A stretch of DNA of 64,000 nt from Nonomuraea jiangxiensis (GTDB taxonomy: Bacteria; Actinomycetota; Actinomycetes; Streptosporangiales; Streptosporangiaceae): assembly GCF_900099965.1 (NCBI RefSeq), contig NZ_FNDJ01000006.1, forward strand, positions 1 to 64,000. Direction: 5' to 3'. The stretch's first letter is position 1; every line of letters begins with the position of its first letter. Positions 2,565 to 62,912 of the stretch are shown piece after piece. A program made the position numbers and the translations under genes. The notes under the pieces were generated by a model. That model made no database searches, was not told the DNA's origin, and saw only the letters and a list, made by a program, of their open reading frames with translations.

Positions 2565-4199
2565 GTGCGCCCATTACCCTCAGGGCCGGCTCGTGCCGGC
2601 GCCTCGTTGATCAGCCGGTTGATCGCTCTCAGCAGTGCCCTGGCCATCGCCGCCGGCCTGACCGTCGCCGTCGCCCCCGCGGCGTCGGCCGCCGACTCCA
2701 TGGTCTACCTCGACGGGATGAAAGACGCCCGCGATGTGGCCGCGGCCGGTGGCAAGGTTTTCGTCGCCGGGGATGACGAGATCATCGTCACCGACTCCCG
2801 CGGCACCATCACCGACACGATCAGCGACCTGCCCGGTGCGGCCGGCCTGGCGGTGACGCCGGACAACAAGCGCGCGTTCGTAGCGCTGAGCGGCGCACAA
2901 CAGGTGCTCGAGCTCGACACGGACTCCCTCGCCGTCATCCGGCGGATCGACGTGGCTCCTTACCCGTGTCCGTGGAACCTGACGTTATCCGATAACCGGT
3001 TGTGGGTGGGCTACGGCTGTGGCAACACGTTCAACGGCGGCGTTTTCGGCCTCGATCTGTCGGCTGCCGCACCGGTGCCGGTGCCGGTTGTGGCCAACAT
3101 CTACAACGCCCCGCTCGTCGCCGCCGCCGGGGGCACCCTCGCCGTCGGCGAGACCGGCCTCAGCGCGTGCGACCTCATGGTGTACGACGTGAACGGCACG
3201 ACTCCCGTCCGGCGAGGCGTCATCAACGGCTTCGATAATTCCTTGGTCATATACGACCTGGTGATCACGTCGGACGGCTCGACAGTCATCCTAAACAATC
3301 TTGACGGATGGGACACCACCAGCCTGACCAAGGCCTTTTCCTTCCCAGGCGGGGCTGGATCCGTCGCGATCAGCCCGGACGGCGCTCACCTGGCGGCCAC
3401 CGGGACGACCGGCTACGACATCACCATGTTCGACATGGGGACGAGGGCACAGACCTACCGGATCTTCGCCTCCTACGCCAGCCCGGTCATCGGTACGCTC
3501 GCCTTCTCGGGTGTCGACGTCTTCACCGTGCTGGAGGAGGTAACGTCCCAACGGCGACTGCGCCTGTGGCGAGCGGAAGGCGCCACACTTCCGGGATCCA
3601 CGCTGAAGCTGTCGGCTCCGCCCACGGGCACCGCCCTCGTTCCGCTCACCGCGACCGGCACGCTCACGTTGGCGGACGGCTCGGCCCCCGGGCCGCAACC
3701 ACTCGTGGTGACCCGGAAACTTCCCGACGGCACCAGTACGACGATCCCAGGCGTGACAACCGCCGCAGACGGCACCTACACCTTCACCGACACCCCTCCG
3801 GTCTCCGGGACGATCACGTACGACGTGTTCTGGAACGGCAACGCGGACTTCCGATGGAGCCGGACCTCTGCCGCCGTCACCGCGGCCAGACACCCATCCT
3901 CGATCACCTTGTCCGGACCCAAGACAGGGACGGTCGGCAAACAACTCTCGTTCAGCGGCGTGCTGGACGCAGGTGATCAGACTCCTCCGTCGGGCGCCCT
4001 GCTCGTGGTATATCTGACTGTCTCTGACGGAAACCTCGAGTTCGTGGGGACCGTGAACACGAACAGCGACGGATCGTTCGCCTTCGTCGACACCCCCGCT
4101 GTGGGCGGTGAGCACGTGTACGAGGTCCGGTGGGACGGCACGAACGTGTTCGAGTACACGCGCGGCACGCACAACGTCACCGTCCGAGGGCGCCCGTAA
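2565..4199 (+). CDS. Secreted beta-propeller protein with Ig-like repeats
   Basis: The product is probably an exported extracellular protein of 544 residues; its substrate is unknown. A signal peptide (about residues 15-42) ends in APAASAAD. Residues about 45-330 form WD/YVTN-like propeller blades with repeated motifs such as VAVTPDNKRAFVAL, SVAISPDGAHLAATG and SDGSTVILNN. Two similar Ig-like units follow (about 350-440 and 445-540); both contain a LSxPxTG-type opening and a DGxYxFxDTP motif, as in bacterial adhesive or prealbumin-like domains. The start is the GTG at 2565, 5 bases after GTGGAG; an ATG two bases earlier is out of frame. It stands alone beside the IS scars. Confidence 0.7.
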   Translation: MRPLPSGPARAGASLISRLIALSSALAIAAGLTVAVAPAASAADSMVYLDGMKDARDVAAAGGKVFVAGDDEIIVTDSRGTITDTISDLPGAAGLAVTPDNKRAFVALSGAQQVLELDTDSLAVIRRIDVAPYPCPWNLTLSDNRLWVGYGCGNTFNGGVFGLDLSAAAPVPVPVVANIYNAPLVAAAGGTLAVGETGLSACDLMVYDVNGTTPVRRGVINGFDNSLVIYDLVITSDGSTVILNNLDGWDTTSLTKAFSFPGGAGSVAISPDGAHLAATGTTGYDITMFDMGTRAQTYRIFASYASPVIGTLAFSGVDVFTVLEEVTSQRRLRLWRAEGATLPGSTLKLSAPPTGTALVPLTATGTLTLADGSAPGPQPLVVTRKLPDGTSTTIPGVTTAADGTYTFTDTPPVSGTITYDVFWNGNADFRWSRTSAAVTAARHPSSITLSGPKTGTVGKQLSFSGVLDAGDQTPPSGALLVVYLTVSDGNLEFVGTVNTNSDGSFAFVDTPAVGGEHVYEVRWDGTNVFEYTRGTHNVTVRGRP

Positions 4200-52367: not shown

Positions 52368-55300
52368 GTGGGTCTGTTCAGGTCGCTGGTGGACGAGAGC
52401 GCCAGGCCCCGGGTCTACCGGCGTAACGAGACCATCTGCTCGTCGCTGCGGCCCTCCGACCGCGTCCACGTGATCGAGTACGGCTACGCCCGCGAGCACA
52501 CCCCGCCCGGCGAGCGCGAGGCCCTGCACGACCTGCGCGGCGCCGGCGACCTCGTGGGCGAGCTGGCCTTCTGGAACCCGGCCGAGCAGGTCAAGGTGGA
52601 CGCGCTGACGGAGGTGCGCGCCTGGCCGATCGACATCCGGCGGCTGCGCGAGCACGCCGCCGCCAGCCCGGCCGTGGCGACCGCGCTGGTGCAGGAGCTG
52701 TTCGCGAGAAACGTGGCCGCCCGCAGGCACGAGGCCCTGGCCCGGGCCCCGGTGGCCGCCCGGCTGGCCGTCTGGCTGCTGCACCTGGACGAGCGCTACC
52801 GGCTGGCCTCCGATTCCGCGCCGCCGCTGTCCATGGAGACGCTGGCCGACCTGGTGGGCAGCTCCCCCGACGTGGTGCAGCGCCAGCTCAACCAGTGGGT
52901 CCGGCGAGGCTGGCTGGTACGCCCCGGCTACCGGCGGCTGCGGATCGCCGACCCGTCCGCGCTGCGCGACGCCGCGGGAAGCTGGGAGCACCTGTCGGCA
53001 CCCTGGACGGGCCGGGTGACGCCGTTCCTGACCCGGCCGGGCGCCGTGCCGGGGCCGCTGCCGGTCGGCGAGGTGCCCAGGCCGCGCCAGCTCCCGGCCG
53101 CCGTGCCCGACTTCACCGGCCGCCAGCAGAGCCTGGACCTGCTCACCGCCTGGCTGAAGCGGCCCCGGCGGACGAACACCATGGTCGTGCAGGGGTTACC
53201 CGGCGTGGGCAAGACGGCGCTGGCCACGCACTGGGGATATCTGCACGCCGACCGGTTCCCCGACGGGCAGATCGTGATCGACCTGCGCGGCCAGTCGCCG
53301 AGCCAGCCGCCGATGACCCCCGCCGAGGCGCTCGGGCAGATCCTGCGCTCCCTCGGCGTCGGCGAGCACATGCCCGCCTCCGACGAGGCCGAGCTGATGT
53401 TGCTCTACCGCAGCAGGATCGCCGGGCGCAGGCTGCTGCTCATCCTCGACAACGCCGCCGACCCGGCCCAGGTCAGGGCGCTGCTACCGGGCAGCAAGGA
53501 CTGCGTGGTGCTGGTGACCAGCCGGACCCGGATGGCGCCGCTGCGCGCCACCGGGCACGCCGACCTCATGGACCTGCCGGTGCTCGACCCGGGCAACGCG
53601 GTGGCGCTGCTGGTGTCGGTGCTCGGGGAGGACTCGGCGCGGGCCGCCGACCGGGACGCGCTGGCCGAGCTGGCCAGGGTGTGCTCGTATCACCCGTTCG
53701 CGCTGCGGATCTCGGCGGCCAAGCTCGCCGAGCACCCGGAGCTGAGCGTGCAGGAGCGGGTGCGGGAGCTGCGCAGGCCCGAGCGGCTGCTCATGAGCGA
53801 TCCGGAGGAGGCGTTCCGGTCGGCGCTCGATCTGGCGTACGAGTCGCTGGGCCCGGCGCAGCGGCGGGCGTTCCGGCACGTCGGGCTGCTGCCGGGGCGG
53901 GACTTCACGCCGCAGGTGCTGGCCGCCGCGCTCGGCGTGCCGGTGCCGGAGGCCGTGGCGGCCGTGGAGGGGCTGCACCGGGCCTACCTGGTGGAGCCGA
54001 TGCCGGGGCCGCGTTACCGGGTGCACGACCTGGTCAAGCGGCTGGCCAGGGAGCTGGGCAGGCATGCGGAGGCAGGCGTGCGCGAGGCCAGGGCCCGGCT
54101 GCTCGACCACTACCTGACCGTGGCGACCGAGCCTGGCACGCCGCGCGAGTGGTTCGAGGCGGAGCGGCGTTCGCTGGTCTCAGCCGTACGGCTGGCGGAG
54201 GAGAGCGGCGCGCACGGGACGGCGTGGCGGCTGGCGGAGGCGGTGTTCGCGCCGTTCAGGAAGCTGCGGTTCTACGCGAACAACCTGGAGGTCCAGCAGG
54301 CAGGGCTGGCCTCGGCGATGCAGGTGGGCAACCGGCGGGCCATCGCGCTCATGCGCGGCCACCTGGGCTCGATCCACCGCGACATCGGACCCTCGACGCT
54401 GGCGGCCAGGTTCATCGGGGAGGCGCTGGCCGACTTCGACGCGCTCGGCGACGGCGTGGGGCGGGCGCGGGCGCTCAACGACCTGGCCGAGGTGCACGGC
54501 ATCGCCGGCAACAACGAGGACGCGCTGAAGTGCGCCGAGGAGGCGCTCGAACTCTACAAGGGCATCGGCGACCAGGCCGGGGTGGTGAGCTGCCTGCACA
54601 CGCTGTCGCGCCTGCACCTGTCCCAGGAGCGGTACGAGCCCGCGCTGCAGCACGCCGGGCAGGCCCTGGACGTACGCGAGGAGCTCGGCGACCGGCGGGG
54701 CACCGCGCAGAGCCTGATCATCCTGGCCAGGGTCCGGCAGCATCTGGGCGAGCCGAACGCGGCGCTGTCGGAGGGCCTGGAGGCGCTGTCGATCTGTCAC
54801 GAGCTGGGCGACGAGCACGCCGAGGCCGAGACGCTGCTCTGCCTGGCCGAGATCTACGACCTGCTGCGGCTGCACCACGACGCGCGCCGCGACGCGGAGC
54901 GGGCGCTGGCCGGATACACCGCGACCGGCGACCAGTACGGCTCTGGCCGGGCGTTGTGCGCGCTCGGCCGCATCGCGCGCAACGGCTCCCGCTACGACGA
55001 GGCGCTGGCCTACTACGAGCGGGCGCTGGCCGTGCAGGTCGAGCTCCACCACGAACAGGGCAAGGCCGAGACCCTCGGGGACATCGGGCTGGTGCACTGG
55101 CGGCTGTCGGACTACCTGCGGGCCGACGACTACCTGAACCAGGCGCTGACGATCAGCCGGGTGATCCGCGATGAGCCGGTGGAGGCCCGCATGCTCAACC
55201 GGCTGGCCAGGGTACGGCGGCGGCAGGGGCTGCCCCAGGTCGGCTTCGTGTACGCGCTCGAAGCCCTGGACATCGTGCAGGGCATGGGCAACCGGCGGGC

Positions 55301-55817
55301 GGAGGCGGACGTGCAGGAGACGCTGGCGTACACGTACCTGTCGCTGGGGCAGCACAAGCCGGCGCTGAAGGCGGCCGAGGCGTCGCTGGCGATCAGGGAG
55401 GAGCTGCGGGACAACCGGGCCAGCGCGCTGCTGTCGATCGCGCAGGCGCTGTACACGGCGGGCCGGTCGGCGGAGGCGCTGGCGCCGGCCAGGGAGACGG
55501 TCGAGCTGCAGAACGAGACCGGCACCAGGGACCGGTGGGCGGCGGCGCTCACGACGCTGGCCATGGTGCTCCTCGACCTGGACCGCCCCGAGGAGGCGCT
55601 GGTCCACGCCCGGCAGGCCAGGGAGGTGCACCTCGAATGCGGGACCAGGCGGGATCTGGGATGCGCGCTGCGGGCGCTGGGACTGGTCGCGGCGCGGCTG
55701 GGGAACCGGGCGGAGGCGGCGGACTGCCTGAGCGAGGCCCGGCGGGTGCTGGAGGAGGTGGGCGACGCGTTCGAAGCGCGGCGGGTCACCGAAGATCTTC
55801 GCGTAATTAGCGGATAA
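52368..55817 (+). CDS. CRP-type sensor fused to NB-ARC ATPase and TPR repeats
   Basis: 1149 residues. Residues 1-120 match a cNMP-binding/CRP-like sensor (VIEYGYAREHTPPGEREALHDLRGAGDLVGELAFW), and 150-195 form a CRP-type helix-turn-helix (ETLADLVGSSPDVVQRQLNQWVRRGWL). The NB-ARC (STAND) NTPase has P-loop GLPGVGKTA (about 276-284) and Walker B RRLLLILDNAAD, with intact TSRTRM and YHPFAL motifs. The remaining 550 residues are TPR repeats. SARP-type STAND regulators usually begin with a different DNA-binding domain, so the CRP start is unusual. Its target genes are unknown; the operon downstream is a candidate. Confidence 0.85.
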   Translation: MGLFRSLVDESARPRVYRRNETICSSLRPSDRVHVIEYGYAREHTPPGEREALHDLRGAGDLVGELAFWNPAEQVKVDALTEVRAWPIDIRRLREHAAASPAVATALVQELFARNVAARRHEALARAPVAARLAVWLLHLDERYRLASDSAPPLSMETLADLVGSSPDVVQRQLNQWVRRGWLVRPGYRRLRIADPSALRDAAGSWEHLSAPWTGRVTPFLTRPGAVPGPLPVGEVPRPRQLPAAVPDFTGRQQSLDLLTAWLKRPRRTNTMVVQGLPGVGKTALATHWGYLHADRFPDGQIVIDLRGQSPSQPPMTPAEALGQILRSLGVGEHMPASDEAELMLLYRSRIAGRRLLLILDNAADPAQVRALLPGSKDCVVLVTSRTRMAPLRATGHADLMDLPVLDPGNAVALLVSVLGEDSARAADRDALAELARVCSYHPFALRISAAKLAEHPELSVQERVRELRRPERLLMSDPEEAFRSALDLAYESLGPAQRRAFRHVGLLPGRDFTPQVLAAALGVPVPEAVAAVEGLHRAYLVEPMPGPRYRVHDLVKRLARELGRHAEAGVREARARLLDHYLTVATEPGTPREWFEAERRSLVSAVRLAEESGAHGTAWRLAEAVFAPFRKLRFYANNLEVQQAGLASAMQVGNRRAIALMRGHLGSIHRDIGPSTLAARFIGEALADFDALGDGVGRARALNDLAEVHGIAGNNEDALKCAEEALELYKGIGDQAGVVSCLHTLSRLHLSQERYEPALQHAGQALDVREELGDRRGTAQSLIILARVRQHLGEPNAALSEGLEALSICHELGDEHAEAETLLCLAEIYDLLRLHHDARRDAERALAGYTATGDQYGSGRALCALGRIARNGSRYDEALAYYERALAVQVELHHEQGKAETLGDIGLVHWRLSDYLRADDYLNQALTISRVIRDEPVEARMLNRLARVRRRQGLPQVGFVYALEALDIVQGMGNRRAEADVQETLAYTYLSLGQHKPALKAAEASLAIREELRDNRASALLSIAQALYTAGRSAEALAPARETVELQNETGTRDRWAAALTTLAMVLLDLDRPEEALVHARQAREVHLECGTRRDLGCALRALGLVAARLGNRAEAADCLSEARRVLEEVGDAFEARRVTEDLRVISG

Positions 55818-56986: not shown

Positions 56987-57093
56987 CCGGCCGGCCGAAC
57001 ACGTAGTGAAATCGATCATTCGCATTGCCGTGATCCACCGTTTGTGCAAGCGTCGAACACGGACGACATCCGGATTTGACGGCGGTTGCGCAC

Positions 57094-57729
57094 GTGCCAC
57101 TTCTCGAGCTCATCGGACTCACCTGGGAGATTCGTGGGATTCGGCGTGGCCTCGACCGCGACCCGCTGACCGTGGGGCCGGGCGACACCGCCGTGGTGGT
57201 GGCCGCCGGCCCGGCGGAGGCAGACGCGTTCACCGATCTGCTGCTCGGCCTGGAGATGCCGGTCGGCGGGCGGATCAAGGTCGGCGGCCAGGAGATCACC
57301 ATGCGGTTGCCGGCCGAGCGCGAGGTCGGGCTCGTTCCGGCGGGGGCGGGGCTGCTGCCGCACCTGACGGTCGAGCAGAACCTGGCGCTGGCCGCCCGTG
57401 ACGGCCTGGCCCCGCTCGTGCACGGCAGGATCGCCTTCATGGCCAGGCGGATGGACATCCAGGGCTTCCTGCGGTCCAGGCCGCACGAGCTGGCCCACGA
57501 CGAGCGCCTGAACGTCGCGCTGGCCCGCGCCCTGTGCCGGCTGCTGCCGGTCAAGGTGCTGGTGATCGAGGACCGTACGGGCTGCGGGCCCTGCCACGCG
57601 GCGGTGAGCGCGGCGCTGCGCACCGACCCCAGCCTGGCCGTGCTGGTCGTCACCGACGACCGGACCAGGGTGGCCAGTCTCGCCTCCCCCGCGCACTTCT
57701 GGGAGACCGCCGATGCCGTTGAGCCGTAG
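57094..57729 (+). CDS. ABC transporter ATPase-like protein with lost catalytic motifs
   Basis: 211 residues folded like an ABC ATPase. Every catalytic site is altered: Walker A is GPAEADAFTD (no GK[ST]), the Q-loop region is VPAGAGLLPHLTV (no Gln), the signature is PHELAHDERLN in place of LSGGQ, Walker B is VLVIEDRTG, and the H-loop has Asp instead of His (VVTDDRTRV). The overall spacing (TVGPGD..., GRIKVGGQEITM, HLTVEQNLAL) remains. The start may instead be TTG at 57076; neither has a ribosome-binding site. It overlaps the binding-protein gene by 17 bases. It probably cannot hydrolyse ATP; a structural or regulatory role is inferred. Confidence 0.75.
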   Translation: MPLLELIGLTWEIRGIRRGLDRDPLTVGPGDTAVVVAAGPAEADAFTDLLLGLEMPVGGRIKVGGQEITMRLPAEREVGLVPAGAGLLPHLTVEQNLALAARDGLAPLVHGRIAFMARRMDIQGFLRSRPHELAHDERLNVALARALCRLLPVKVLVIEDRTGCGPCHAAVSAALRTDPSLAVLVVTDDRTRVASLASPAHFWETADAVEP

Positions 57730-58939
57730 GGGACTGCTGGCCGCGATCCCGGCGGTGGCCCTGGCCGGGTGCGGCGCGAAGCCGCCACTGCGGGTGGCGG
57801 TGGTCTGGAGCGGTGACGAGCTGGGGCGCTTCCTCGACGTGGTCAAGGAGTACGACCAGCCGGTCAGGGTCTATTCGGCGGGCGACAACATCGGTGCCCT
57901 GCTGCGCGGACCCGCGACGGAGGTCGTCCCCGACGTGGCCGTCATCCCCCGGCTGGGCCTGCTGTTCGACCCGGTGATCCGGCGCCGCGTCAGGCCGCTG
58001 AACCCGTTGGAGGACGGCGAGGAGCGGCAGCCGAAGTTCTGGCGGGAGCTCGTGACGTCCGAACGCGGGCAGGAGCTGGGCGTCTGGTTCAAGGTCGCGC
58101 ACAAGTCGCTCGTGTGGCACCGCGTCGGCGAGGCCGTGCGGCCCGCCGACCTGGACACCTGGCGACCCGTCCCTGGCGACCTGTCCATCGGGGCTGCCGA
58201 CGGGTGGGTGCTCAGCGACTGGTTCGAGAACGTGCTGCTCGCCTCCGCCCCCGAGGTCTACGCCGGGCTGTTCCCACCGGGCCAGGACGCGGGCAATCCC
58301 ACCTGGTGGGACACCCCCCAGATCGAGCAGGCGCTCAAACTGCTGGCGGAGATCTGGAAGGGCGCGTTCCCCCGCGAGGCGGCCAGGCGCGCGCTCACCA
58401 AGCAGTTCCACGACTCCATCCTCGACGTCTTCGCCTACGGCACCGCCAGGATGGTGGCCGCGCCCGACTTCGCCCTGCCGGTCATCGAGCGGTTCAAGGC
58501 CGGCGGCGTCGCCCCGCAGCACTTCCCCTTCCCCGGCCAGGCGGGCAGGCAGCCCCCGCTCGTGGTCGGCGGCGACGTGGCGGTGGCCCTGCACGACGAC
58601 GCCAGGCCCTTCGTCGACTGGCTGACCAGGCAGCGGGCGGCGGGCGAGCACGACGCGGTGACGAGATGGGTCGCCGAGGGCGGCTTCCTGACGCCGTTCA
58701 CGCTGCCCACCCACCCGCTGCTCGTCGGCCCGGCGCAGGAGCTCCACTCCGCGGTGAACGCCCGCTACGACCTGTCCGACCGGCTCATCGGCACGCTGGA
58801 GGGCGGGGACGGGCGCGGGTTGTGGCGCGTGCTCACCGAGCTCTTCTCGGAGGTGACCGTGGCCGGCGCCGATCCCGGCGCGGCGGCCGAAGCGGCCAGG
58901 GAGAAGCTCGCCCAGGGCAGCAGGGAGGGGGCCCTGTGA
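57713..58939 (+). CDS. ABC-type extracellular solute-binding lipoprotein
   Basis: 408 residues of the sugar- or polyol-binding (MalE/UgpB-like) family. The lipobox is ALAGC after SRRGLLAAIPAVA. The lobes show RVAVVWSGDELGRFLDVV at the N-terminus and typical YAGLFPPGQ and PLVVGGDVAVALHDD regions. The substrate is unknown. The gene overlaps both neighbours (17 bases upstream, 4 downstream), which shows tight operon structure. Confidence 0.85.
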   Translation: MPLSRRGLLAAIPAVALAGCGAKPPLRVAVVWSGDELGRFLDVVKEYDQPVRVYSAGDNIGALLRGPATEVVPDVAVIPRLGLLFDPVIRRRVRPLNPLEDGEERQPKFWRELVTSERGQELGVWFKVAHKSLVWHRVGEAVRPADLDTWRPVPGDLSIGAADGWVLSDWFENVLLASAPEVYAGLFPPGQDAGNPTWWDTPQIEQALKLLAEIWKGAFPREAARRALTKQFHDSILDVFAYGTARMVAAPDFALPVIERFKAGGVAPQHFPFPGQAGRQPPLVVGGDVAVALHDDARPFVDWLTRQRAAGEHDAVTRWVAEGGFLTPFTLPTHPLLVGPAQELHSAVNARYDLSDRLIGTLEGGDGRGLWRVLTELFSEVTVAGADPGAAAEAAREKLAQGSREGAL

Positions 58940-60642
58940 GCGAGCGGAACGCGTTCCTGTTCGAGGTGGCGCCGCACCACGACGCCGGGGTACCGGTGGT
59001 CAGGCACGGCCTGGGCCGCTGGCGCGCCTCCGCCTACCTGCTGCTCGCGGTCCTGCTGTCGGCCGGCATCATCCTGGTCCCGCTCTTCGTGACGGTGATC
59101 ATCAGCTTCTCCAACGGGCTGACCGGCTACGCGGTGCTGGGGGACGAAAAGGTGCTGCAGTCGCTGGGCAACTCGTTCGTGTGGCTGGTGCTGGCCGTGC
59201 TCGTGTGCGTGGTCGGGCTCGGCTTGGCCTGGCTGACCAGGAACGCGGGGCCGGTGCTGAGCCGCGTTCTGAGCGTGCTGCTGGTGCTGCCGGCCGTGGT
59301 CTCGCCGCTCACCACGGGCGCGATCTTCCGCTCGCTGTTCGACACCGACCCGGGGCGCGGCCCGGTCAACGCCCTGCTCGGCCTGCTCGACGTGAACGTG
59401 GCCTTTCTCGGGCCGGTCTGGCTCTGGCTGGTGCTCGGGCTGGCGTTCGTCTGGCAGTGGGCCGGGGTGGCGTTCCTGGTCTTCCGCGCGGCCCTGGCCC
59501 GGATGCCGACCAACCTGCTCCGCGTGACCAGGGCGTTCGGCGTGGACCGGCGGCGCCGGATCTGGTCCGTCGTGGTGCCCGCGCTGGCCGGGCCGGCTGC
59601 GCTGGCGTACCTGCTCGCGCTGGTGGCGGCGGCGCGCGTGTTCGACCTCGTGCTGATGGGCGCGCCCGGGTCGATGCAGGCCGAGGTCGAGGGCGCCGGG
59701 CTGTTCTGGTGGCGGCACCACGGCGACCTGCGCGAGGCGCGGGCCGGCGCGCTCTCCGTGGGGCTGTCCGTCATGGTGGCCGTGATGGCGCTGCCCGCGC
59801 TGTTCGGCCTGCGGGGGCGGGTGACCTGGGGTGAGCCGGTCGCCCCGGCACGGCCCCTGGGCGGCCGGCGGCTGCGGGTCGCGTGCTGGGCGGTGTCGGT
59901 GCTGTGGGCGCTGCCGTTCGTGGTGCTCGTGCTCACCTCGCTGCGCGAGCCGAACGCCGCCGCGCTGTCCGGATGGTGGAACGGCGGCCCCTGGACGCTC
60001 GGCTCGTACGCGGACGCGCTGGCCGACAGCGGTTTCATGGGCGCGCTCGGCACCACGTTCCTGCGGGCCGCCCTGGTCGTCGCGCTGGTGCTGCTGGCCG
60101 CCGTGCCCGCCGCGTACGTGCTGGCCCACCAGCACCTCCTGCCGCGCCGCGGCTGGCGGCCCGCGCTCCTGGTCGCGGTGGCGCTGGCGGCGCTGCCGCC
60201 GCAGGCGTTCGCCGTGCCGCTGCAGCTCTGGCTCAGCCCCGTCGTCGGCACCGGGTCCGCGCTGGCCATCGTGCACGCGGCACTGGTGATCCCGCTGGCG
60301 GTGCTGGTGCTGCACAACGCGTTCGTCCGCGTCTCGACCCCCATGCTGGCGCGGCACCGTTGGGAGCTGGTCCACGTCGGACGCGAGGCCAGGCCCGCGC
60401 TGGTGCTGGCCGGGGTGCTGGCGTTCGTGCTGGTGTGGAACGACACGGTCGTCGGGCTGCTGCTCAACTGGCCCGCGGGCGATCACCTGTCGCTGATCCT
60501 GCTGGAGCAGGCCCGCCACTTCGTCAGCGCCGCGGCGCCGCTGGCCGCGGAGTCGGTGCTGGCGACCGCGGTGCCGCTGCTGGTGGTGGCCGTCACCGGG
60601 CGCTGGCTGTATCGGGGGCTGACGCAGGGGGTACGGCGATGA
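58936..60642 (+). CDS. Fused double ABC permease
   Basis: 568 residues joining two MalF/MalG-type permease domains end to end. The first spans about 30-290 and the second about 310-560, with about 12 membrane helices in all. The EAA-like loop of the first domain is RVTRAFGVDRRRRIWSVVVPAL. That of the second (ARHRWELVHVGREARP) is degenerate; this loop normally docks the ATPase. The start is the GTG at 58936 overlapping the binding-protein stop (GTGA). The fusion is unusual, since most importers encode the two permeases separately. Confidence 0.82.
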   Translation: MSERNAFLFEVAPHHDAGVPVVRHGLGRWRASAYLLLAVLLSAGIILVPLFVTVIISFSNGLTGYAVLGDEKVLQSLGNSFVWLVLAVLVCVVGLGLAWLTRNAGPVLSRVLSVLLVLPAVVSPLTTGAIFRSLFDTDPGRGPVNALLGLLDVNVAFLGPVWLWLVLGLAFVWQWAGVAFLVFRAALARMPTNLLRVTRAFGVDRRRRIWSVVVPALAGPAALAYLLALVAAARVFDLVLMGAPGSMQAEVEGAGLFWWRHHGDLREARAGALSVGLSVMVAVMALPALFGLRGRVTWGEPVAPARPLGGRRLRVACWAVSVLWALPFVVLVLTSLREPNAAALSGWWNGGPWTLGSYADALADSGFMGALGTTFLRAALVVALVLLAAVPAAYVLAHQHLLPRRGWRPALLVAVALAALPPQAFAVPLQLWLSPVVGTGSALAIVHAALVIPLAVLVLHNAFVRVSTPMLARHRWELVHVGREARPALVLAGVLAFVLVWNDTVVGLLLNWPAGDHLSLILLEQARHFVSAAAPLAAESVLATAVPLLVVAVTGRWLYRGLTQGVRR

Positions 60643-62912
60643 CGGACATCTCGCGAAAGGACCGGCTGCGCTTCCGGGCGTCGCGGCTGGCCCGGCGCGC
60701 CGGGGCCCACCTGCCCGAGCTGGGGCTCGGCGGGCTGGTGACGGCCGGCGGCACGGTCCTGCTGCTGCAGGAGGAGCTGATCAAGCAGCTCGCCGGCGGC
60801 CTCCCGGTCTGGCTGCTCGCCCTGCTGGCCCTGCCCCTGCCGATCGCGGCGGGCTGGCTCACGCACCTCGTACGCCGCCGCAGCCCGGCCCCGCCCCCAC
60901 CGCTCTTCGGCCGCCTGCCCTTCCCCGACGTGATCGACGCTCTCGTGGGCCGCGACGCCGAGCTGCGGCAGATCCAGGACCGGGCCCGCGAACGCGGCGT
61001 CGTCGTGGTCCAGGGCCCGATGGGCACGGGCACGTCCGCCGTCGCCATCAAGGCCACCTGGGACCTGGCCGGGGACGCCCGCAAGCAGCGCTACGCCGAC
61101 CTGCGCGGCCCCGACCGGGACCGCCCGGAGACGCCGCTGAGCGTGGCACAGCGCGTGTTACGCACGCTCGACCGGCCGCCCGGCGCCATCCAGGAGGCCG
61201 ACGACGCGACCCCGCAGGTGATCGACGCGCTCACCGGCTCGGGCCGGGTGCTGCTGCTGGACAACGTCAGCGCCTGGAGCCAGGTCGCCTGGCTGCCGCC
61301 TCGGGTGCCGGGGGCGCACATCATCGTGGCGGGAACGTTCACGGACGACCTGCCGCCGCACACGGAGCCGGTCCAGCTCGGCCCGCTCGGCCCCGGCGCC
61401 GGGCGCGAGCTGCTGGCCCGCCACATCGGCGACGAGCGGGCCGAGCGCGACCCCGCCGCGCTCGGGCTGCTGGTCGACGCCTGCCTGGGCAGCCCCGCCG
61501 AGATCGTCAGGGTCGGCCGCTGGCTGGCCGGCAACCCGAACATCCCCCTGCGCTCCCTGGTCGACGACCTGGAGCGGCTGCCCATCGCCGAGAAGCTCGA
61601 CTTCGTGCTCAACCTCAGCGTCAAGCAGCTCAGACCGACCGCCAAGCAACTGCTCAGCCTCCTGTCGGACCTGCCGGTCGCCGAGCTCGACCACGGCGCG
61701 GTCGCCGCCCTGCTGGGTGTGCCCGCCGCGGACGACGCCATCAAGGAGCTGGGCGACCTCGGCCTCGTGGAGAACGTACGGATGACGCGCGTACGGGTGA
61801 CCGGCGCCTTCCGCTCCACGGGCACGCCCGACACGCCGCGCAAGGTCGCGGCCTGGCGGCGGCTGGTCGAGCACTACGCGCAGCAGGCCGACACGTTCGG
61901 CGCGCGGTTGCCCGACGAGGGCGCCCGCACCTGGTTCGCCATGGAGGACCGGGTGCTGTTGCGGGTGCTGGCCCGTACCCCGCCGGTGCCCAAGACCGGG
62001 GACGCGCTCGCCAGGATCGCCGACGGGCTGGAGACGTGGTTCCGGCTGGAACAGCGGCACGAGGACCGGCTGCGCGCGGCGGCGGAGCTGGCCAGGGCCG
62101 CCGAGGCGCTGCGCGACGAGCAGGCCCAGGCCACGGCCGAGCTGCGCCAGTGCGCCGTCCTGCTCACCACGGGCGACCCGCGCCGGGCCCGCCGGCACTT
62201 CAACAGGGCCGCCGAGCTGCGGGTCAAGGTGGAGTCGTGGCCCGCGGAGCTGCACCTGGAGCACGCGGCGATCCTGCTGGCCAGCGGCGACGAGTTCACC
62301 GCCGTGGAGTCGGCGCTCGTCCGCTACGGGCAGGCACTGTCCGGCGGCGACGTCGCGGGCCACACGCTGCGGCTGACGAACGTGGCCGCGCTGCTGCTGC
62401 GCAAGGGCCAGACGCTCGACCACGAGGGGCGTGGCCCGGAGGCCCACCGCCTGTACGCCGACGCGCGGGCCGTGCTGTTCGAGTCGCTGGACATGGCCAG
62501 GGGAACCGGCGACGGGAACGCCCGCGCGCACGCCCACGAGCTGCTCGCGCTCGCGCACCTCTACCTCGGCCTGGCCTTCGACGCCAGGTCCCACCTCGAC
62601 CAGGCCGAACGCCTCTACGCCGGCACCGCCGACGAGCTCGGGCGGGCGCGCTGCCTGGTGCAGCGGGCCGGGGTCCTGCTGGAGGATGCCCAGTACGCGC
62701 CTGAAGAGGTGATCAGGCTGCTGGAGGAGGCCGGGCCACGGCTGCCGCCGGCGGGGGTGAGCACCGCGCTCGCCCACCTCCACCTGGCGCGGCTGCGGCC
62801 CGAACGCATCCAGGAGCACCAGGAGGCCGGGCTGACGGCCCTGTCCCCCTGGGACGGGATCGCGGAGCCACGCCAGGTCAGCGAGCTACGAGCACGCCTG
62901 CTGGCCCTGTGA
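60639..62912 (+). CDS. Membrane-linked STAND NTPase-like protein without P-loop lysine
   Basis: 757 residues. Two hydrophobic segments (about 29-45 and 54-78) anchor it, then an AAA/STAND-like domain follows, with VQGPMGTGTSAVAI at the P-loop (lysine replaced by Thr) and RVLLLDNVSA as Walker B. The remaining C-terminal half consists of helical repeats like TPR (ARAAEALRDEQAQATAEL, ARSHLDQAERLYAGT). It overlaps the permease stop (ATGA). It shares architecture with the CRP-STAND protein upstream but is truncated at the sensor side and lacks an intact P-loop. Function is unknown. Confidence 0.7.
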   Translation: MTDISRKDRLRFRASRLARRAGAHLPELGLGGLVTAGGTVLLLQEELIKQLAGGLPVWLLALLALPLPIAAGWLTHLVRRRSPAPPPPLFGRLPFPDVIDALVGRDAELRQIQDRARERGVVVVQGPMGTGTSAVAIKATWDLAGDARKQRYADLRGPDRDRPETPLSVAQRVLRTLDRPPGAIQEADDATPQVIDALTGSGRVLLLDNVSAWSQVAWLPPRVPGAHIIVAGTFTDDLPPHTEPVQLGPLGPGAGRELLARHIGDERAERDPAALGLLVDACLGSPAEIVRVGRWLAGNPNIPLRSLVDDLERLPIAEKLDFVLNLSVKQLRPTAKQLLSLLSDLPVAELDHGAVAALLGVPAADDAIKELGDLGLVENVRMTRVRVTGAFRSTGTPDTPRKVAAWRRLVEHYAQQADTFGARLPDEGARTWFAMEDRVLLRVLARTPPVPKTGDALARIADGLETWFRLEQRHEDRLRAAAELARAAEALRDEQAQATAELRQCAVLLTTGDPRRARRHFNRAAELRVKVESWPAELHLEHAAILLASGDEFTAVESALVRYGQALSGGDVAGHTLRLTNVAALLLRKGQTLDHEGRGPEAHRLYADARAVLFESLDMARGTGDGNARAHAHELLALAHLYLGLAFDARSHLDQAERLYAGTADELGRARCLVQRAGVLLEDAQYAPEEVIRLLEEAGPRLPPAGVSTALAHLHLARLRPERIQEHQEAGLTALSPWDGIAEPRQVSELRARLLAL

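Follow-up and report, generated by a model that had tools for sequence, protein, structure and literature searches.

A conserved four-gene operon derived from a sugar ABC importer lacks ATP-handling residues and is probably a transmembrane sensor

A four-gene operon of Nonomuraea jiangxiensis probably encodes a transmembrane sensor that is independent of ATP and derives from a dead sugar ABC importer. We give this reading a probability of about 65%. The operon lies in a 64,000-nucleotide stretch of DNA (the window) at the start of contig NZ_FNDJ01000006.1, which is part of an 11.8-Mb genome. Its genes descend from the CUT1-type importer family, and the ATP machinery of that family has been lost at three levels: in the NBD-like protein (pseudo-NBD), in an added STAND-like protein (pseudo-STAND), and in the permease loops on which an ATPase would dock. 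From this pattern we infer a role in signaling.

Table 1. Genes of the operon and altered sites within them (window coordinates)
Feature	Position	Strand	Remarks
Gene 1, pseudo-NBD	57076..57729	+	217 aa, TTG start; MalK/ModC-type ABC ATPase fold
Walker A position of gene 1	57202..57228	+	AAGPAEADA versus GPSGCGKTT in active relatives, same spacing
Gene 2, CUT1-type sugar-binding lipoprotein	57713..58939	+	408 aa, lipobox LAGC
Gene 3, fused SugA-SugB-type permease	58936..60642	+	568 aa, GTG start, 12 hydrophobic segments
First EAA coupling-loop position	59521..59544	+	RVTRAFGV versus EAARIDGA in conventional relatives
Second EAA loop	60343..60396	+	~8 residues shorter, degenerate (MLARHRWELVHVGREARP)
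Gene 4, membrane-anchored pseudo-STAND protein	60639..62912	+	757 aa
P-loop of gene 4	61014..61037	+	GPMGTGTS, Lys to Thr

The preliminary description of this DNA reported four genes that overlap by 17, 4, and 4 bases, and both the coordinates and the overlaps are correct (Table 1). A GTG codon at 57094 is a possible alternative start for gene 1. The description had also proposed looking for the same gene order in other actinobacteria, and the search returned 24 further loci in the family that share both the gene order and the losses. The same four genes thus occur at 25 distinct loci, a count that includes one (L123) whose contig ends within the permease gene, before gene 4. At a few loci the genes are separated by short gaps or have longer overlaps. 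Gene 1 is found at 90 bits or more in 20 of the 201 genomes sampled from the family (this genome counted), always adjoined by gene 2. Carriers of the operon belong to Nonomuraea, Acrocarpospora, Sphaerisporangium, and further genera of the family. The nearest named relatives of the operon are in Nonomuraea species, and the next nearest are in Acrocarpospora and Sphaerisporangium.

Outside Nonomuraea, no conserved flanking gene was seen in the loci compared. Because flanking genes are not common to these loci, the operon itself is the conserved unit. Upstream of it in the window, at 52368–55817, is a gene whose product joins a Crp-like sensor to TPR repeats and an AfsR-type NOD with an intact GLPGVGKT sequence. 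This Crp-STAND gene is near the operon at four of the six other Nonomuraea-group loci (L003, L004, L007, and L112) and not elsewhere. It was considered as an essential partner of the operon and rejected, being common to some Nonomuraea loci only.

The product of gene 1 has retained the fold of an ABC ATPase. It matches Pfam ABC_tran above the cut-off (31.5 bits) and is of the MalK/ModC type in a PDB profile search (1e-28). Its AlphaFold model is a confident NBD fold (pLDDT 90.8, pTM 0.88), for which the best PDB matches found with Foldseek are CysA, PotA, ModC, and MalK. The C-terminal regulatory domain of MsiK-type ATPases is missing (217 amino acids versus open frames of at least 354 amino acids in the comparison set). 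Several fold residues are invariant or nearly so, as is a permease-facing LxPHLTVxxN stretch that follows the Q-loop.

The active site, as first described, has lost Walker A, the Q-loop Gln, LSGGQ, and the H-loop His while keeping the family spacing, and this pattern holds at all 25 loci. In addition to the Walker A replacement (Table 1), the Q-loop Gln is changed to Ala, LSGGQ to LAHDE, and the H-loop His to Asp. Retention of the Walker A Lys, the Q-loop Gln, both signature Gly residues, and the H-loop His is 0% over the 25 gene 1 loci. At the Walker B site, where Asp-Glu-Pro is expected, there is an invariant Glu-Asp and then an Arg that is nearly invariant; the alignment could be shifted by one residue, and in neither register are the Asp and Glu both in place. 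No closer homolog with intact Walker motifs was found among the 25 sequences.

Two further features of gene 1 were observed. An EDRxGxxPC motif, at 57568–57594 and in the homologs, stands where the Walker B to D-loop region belongs. Its Glu, Asp, and Gly are invariant and its Arg, Pro, and Cys nearly so, and it might form a new site for binding or redox chemistry. At L123, the pseudo-NBD open frame (3035–4006) encodes 324 amino acids, with long extensions at both the N and C termini.

Gene 2 has no match in Pfam or NCBIfam. Its family profile weakly matches sugar-binding proteins, LpqY and NagB2 among them (8e-06), and its nearest relatives are the binding proteins of conventional importers. 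A lipobox-like motif is kept by every member except one. Among the 75 columns that are invariant in conventional relatives, 35 are retained in at least 90% of the members, with a mean retention of 62%. Another protein of the gene 2 family is encoded at L171 (167–1486), where, judged by eye, one neighbor is a further binding-protein-like gene, on the opposite strand, and another is a PAP2/kinase-like fusion. This locus was rejected as a further variant of the operon, since it carries a lone binding protein among unrelated genes.

The permease was originally described as a fusion of two halves, and indeed the N-terminal half of gene 3 matches SugA and the C-terminal half SugB. Many invariant core residues are kept. 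The EAA loop of such proteins is the docking site for the NBD in type I importers (PMC7658222). Degeneration had been noted for the loop of the second half only; that loop is indeed degenerate, but the first has been lost as well. In the 25 loci of the four-gene type, sequences like RMARAFG occupy the first loop, and the second has degenerated and become shorter. The motif EAARxDG is present in both permeases of 11 of 11 conventional sister operons, one of which belongs to this genome. Judging from these sequences, the gene 3 coupling loops are unfit to dock MsiK. Loss of the EAA sequence is not strict proof that transport has been lost.

Gene 4 encodes one or more N-terminal membrane segments, an AfsR-type NOD, a winged helix, and a TPR array. 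Pfam and NCBIfam provide no useful name for it. However, a profile match to AfsR spans the NOD, winged helix, and TPR regions (1.2e-20), and the modeled fold resembles those of the STAND protein PH0952 and Apaf-1 (pLDDT 83.8, confidence being low at the N terminus). One or two hydrophobic segments occupy the position of the N-terminal DNA-binding domain of AfsR. These matches, together with the replacement of Lys by Thr, confirm the initial view of gene 4 as a membrane STAND-like protein without its P-loop lysine. The Lys is replaced in 24 of 24 members (by Thr in 22, by Ala in 2), and the sensor-1 Arg and the MHD His are absent from all 24. The same three residues are intact in the nearest STAND paralogs, six of six, including the Crp-STAND gene of the window. 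Since all 24 members retain the Walker B Asp-Asn and the three glycines of the P-loop, gene 4 proteins may still bind nucleotide. At L125 and L126 the P-loop has changed further, from GxxGxGTS to GxxGxGAG.

When the class sample was searched with the STAND profile, the window copy gave the only full-length match; the others cover mainly the NOD and winged helix. The operon encodes no output domain of the kinase, DNA-binding, or nuclease type, and Pfam and NCBIfam report no kinase domain in any of its four proteins. In the loci compared, no conserved neighboring gene that might be a signaling target was seen outside Nonomuraea.

The gene 2 profile also finds a widespread conventional importer, of which this genome has one copy (G000:C24) and genomes of family f18 have one to three each. 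These sister importers have separate permeases and perfect EAA loops, and their operons often lack an ATPase gene. Where one is present at L164, L165, L193, and L194, it is followed by the binding protein and then by the permease or permeases. This is the gene order of the operon, as expected of its ancestor.

A three-gene version, found in 8 of 201 genomes sampled from another family, all of one genus, consists of the lipoprotein, a fused permease, and a TM-winged-helix-TPR protein without a NOD or NTPase domain. No ATPase-like gene lies beside the eight loci, and the upstream genes are unrelated. By eye, a SPFH/flotillin-like gene is present upstream of three of them (L186, L187, and L192). 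Both EAA loops are unrecognizable where they can be aligned; the first loop of L192 cannot. Trees of the binding proteins and permeases, which are midpoint-rooted, place the four- and three-gene systems together and apart from the conventional importers (100/99 and 100/100), each as a single group, although long branches meet and the first tree took in one three-gene row only. The simplest reading is that the permease fusion would have been one event.

Pairwise dN/dS values (NG86) range from 0.17 to 0.73 and are below 1 for all four genes and all groups tested, which shows constraint on every gene of the operon, weakest in gene 4. Sequencing error had been named as a possible refutation of the losses. 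Because the same substitutions recur in some two dozen genomes that were sequenced separately, and because dN/dS is below 1, both chance and sequencing error are excluded. The same evidence makes it highly improbable that the operon is the remnant of a decaying importer. Two of its proteins are without catalytic residues, but throughout the family all four genes remain whole and tightly spaced, dN/dS speaks for constraint, and new invariant residues have arisen, such as those of the EDRxGxxPC motif. We therefore rejected decay and error on the strength of the 24 further loci and the dN/dS values.

The first description left a choice between a receptor and an importer that borrows its ATPase. 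The lost NTP-site residues and EAA loops support the receptor, and borrowing is disfavored. If the operon were still an importer, it would be powered by a shared MsiK-type ATPase, and the pseudo-NBD would set specificity or fill one of the two NBD sites. ATPases of the MsmX/MsiK type are known to serve several importers (PMC7658222). It is common for conventional sister operons to lack an ATPase gene, and the borrowing reading keeps some weight because the genome encodes an MsiK-like ATPase of 416 amino acids (G000:C22:336936-338126) with 56% identity to the ATPase of one sister operon. However, the docking loops that such an ATPase needs are precisely the parts that were lost. Both are degenerate or shortened in every member, whereas they are perfect in sister importers that lack their own ATPase gene. 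Furthermore, the degenerate NBD of a working heterodimer usually keeps Walker A, which is gone here. Overall, a borrowed ATPase is unlikely.

We judge it quite unlikely that the operon encodes an ATP-independent facilitator, in which the STAND protein would gate a passive or ion-driven path that runs through the fused permease and is fed by the binding protein. Passive flow would fit the loss of all ATP machinery, and the permease does retain its 12 hydrophobic segments along with many invariant residues of the core. However, we know of no MalFG-type permease shown to work without an NBD, and a facilitator leaves the recruitment and retention of a STAND-TPR protein unexplained. The chance is smaller still that the pseudo-complex is a regulator that inhibits the conventional sister importer or competes with it for a shared ATPase or ligand. 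A conventional sister operon is indeed present in the same genome, but with its EAA loops missing the pseudo-complex should not compete for the ATPase. Competition for ligand would need the binding protein alone, and many genomes have the conventional operon only.

A transporter turned into an ATP-independent sensor is further supported by the lipobox, by the retention of much of the binding-protein core, and by a sister clade without an ATPase or NTPase domain. In such a sensor, the lipoprotein would catch a solute outside the cell, probably an oligosaccharide or sugar-like compound, and close on it. The fused permease would take up this change of shape, and because no ATP cycle can drive it, we propose that it would switch shape instead of pumping. 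Beneath it, the pseudo-NBD would serve as a fixed cytoplasmic adaptor. The membrane-anchored STAND-TPR protein would read the state of the permease or adaptor and pass a signal to a cytosolic partner via its TPR array. Since the adaptor and NOD are missing from the three-gene clade, the minimal core would be the binding protein, the fused permease, and the membrane-anchored winged-helix-TPR protein.

Parts of this arrangement resemble known systems. As in CUT1 importers, including LpqY-SugABC and MsiK-dependent systems, there are a binding lipoprotein, SugA- and SugB-like permease halves, and a MalK-type NBD fold, and some sister operons share the order ATPase, binding protein, permease, permease. 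The operon differs in that its NBD lacks the ATP site and C-terminal domain, its EAA loops are lost, its permeases are fused, and a STAND-TPR protein has been added. Gene 4 has the NOD, winged helix, and TPR region in common with AfsR-type STAND regulators, but it carries membrane segments in place of the N-terminal DNA-binding part and has lost the P-loop Lys, sensor-1 Arg, and MHD His. For how it might act, NRCX, an atypical plant NLR of the STAND superfamily that is reported to modulate signaling, is offered as no more than a lead (PMC9851556). Unlike membrane-anchored gene 4, plant NLRs of the NRCX type are soluble and have unrelated partners.

In working principle, the best analog is GlnH-GlnX-PknG of Corynebacterium and Mycobacterium, in which a binding lipoprotein signals by way of a membrane protein to a cytosolic kinase, and the TPR domain of this kinase couples the signal (PMC9769921; PMC8546545). 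This is an analogy only and implies no family membership: GlnX is a four-helix membrane protein rather than an ABC permease, and PknG carries a kinase, unlike the operon proteins. Transport components are also used for sensing in AatJ-AauS-AauR of Pseudomonas syringae (PMC7386598), but in that system the ABC transporter remains functional and a two-component system provides the output. The same use is made of a transport component in SLC5/STAC sensor kinases, which are reported to be based on a symporter (PMC9100948).

No published description of the operon was found in the open-licence literature, which is weak evidence of absence. We file it as binding-protein-based transmembrane sensing with ABC-derived components, a variant of a known principle. 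It may instead represent a new class of bacterial receptor, in which a whole ABC importer architecture serves as an ATP-free switch with a pseudo-STAND protein as its output, both catalytically dead and in one complex. We propose this tentatively, at slightly less than an even chance.

By definition, an ABC importer is regarded as a pump driven by ATP, and the genes of this operon would be annotated as transporter subunits. If the sensor reading is true, an importer without ATP-handling parts that is kept whole by selection and linked to a STAND-TPR protein shows a route from pump to receptor. The conventional, four-gene, and three-gene systems form a natural evolutionary series in which this change can be tested, and the operon offers a tractable case for the role of a STAND protein without nucleotide hydrolysis.
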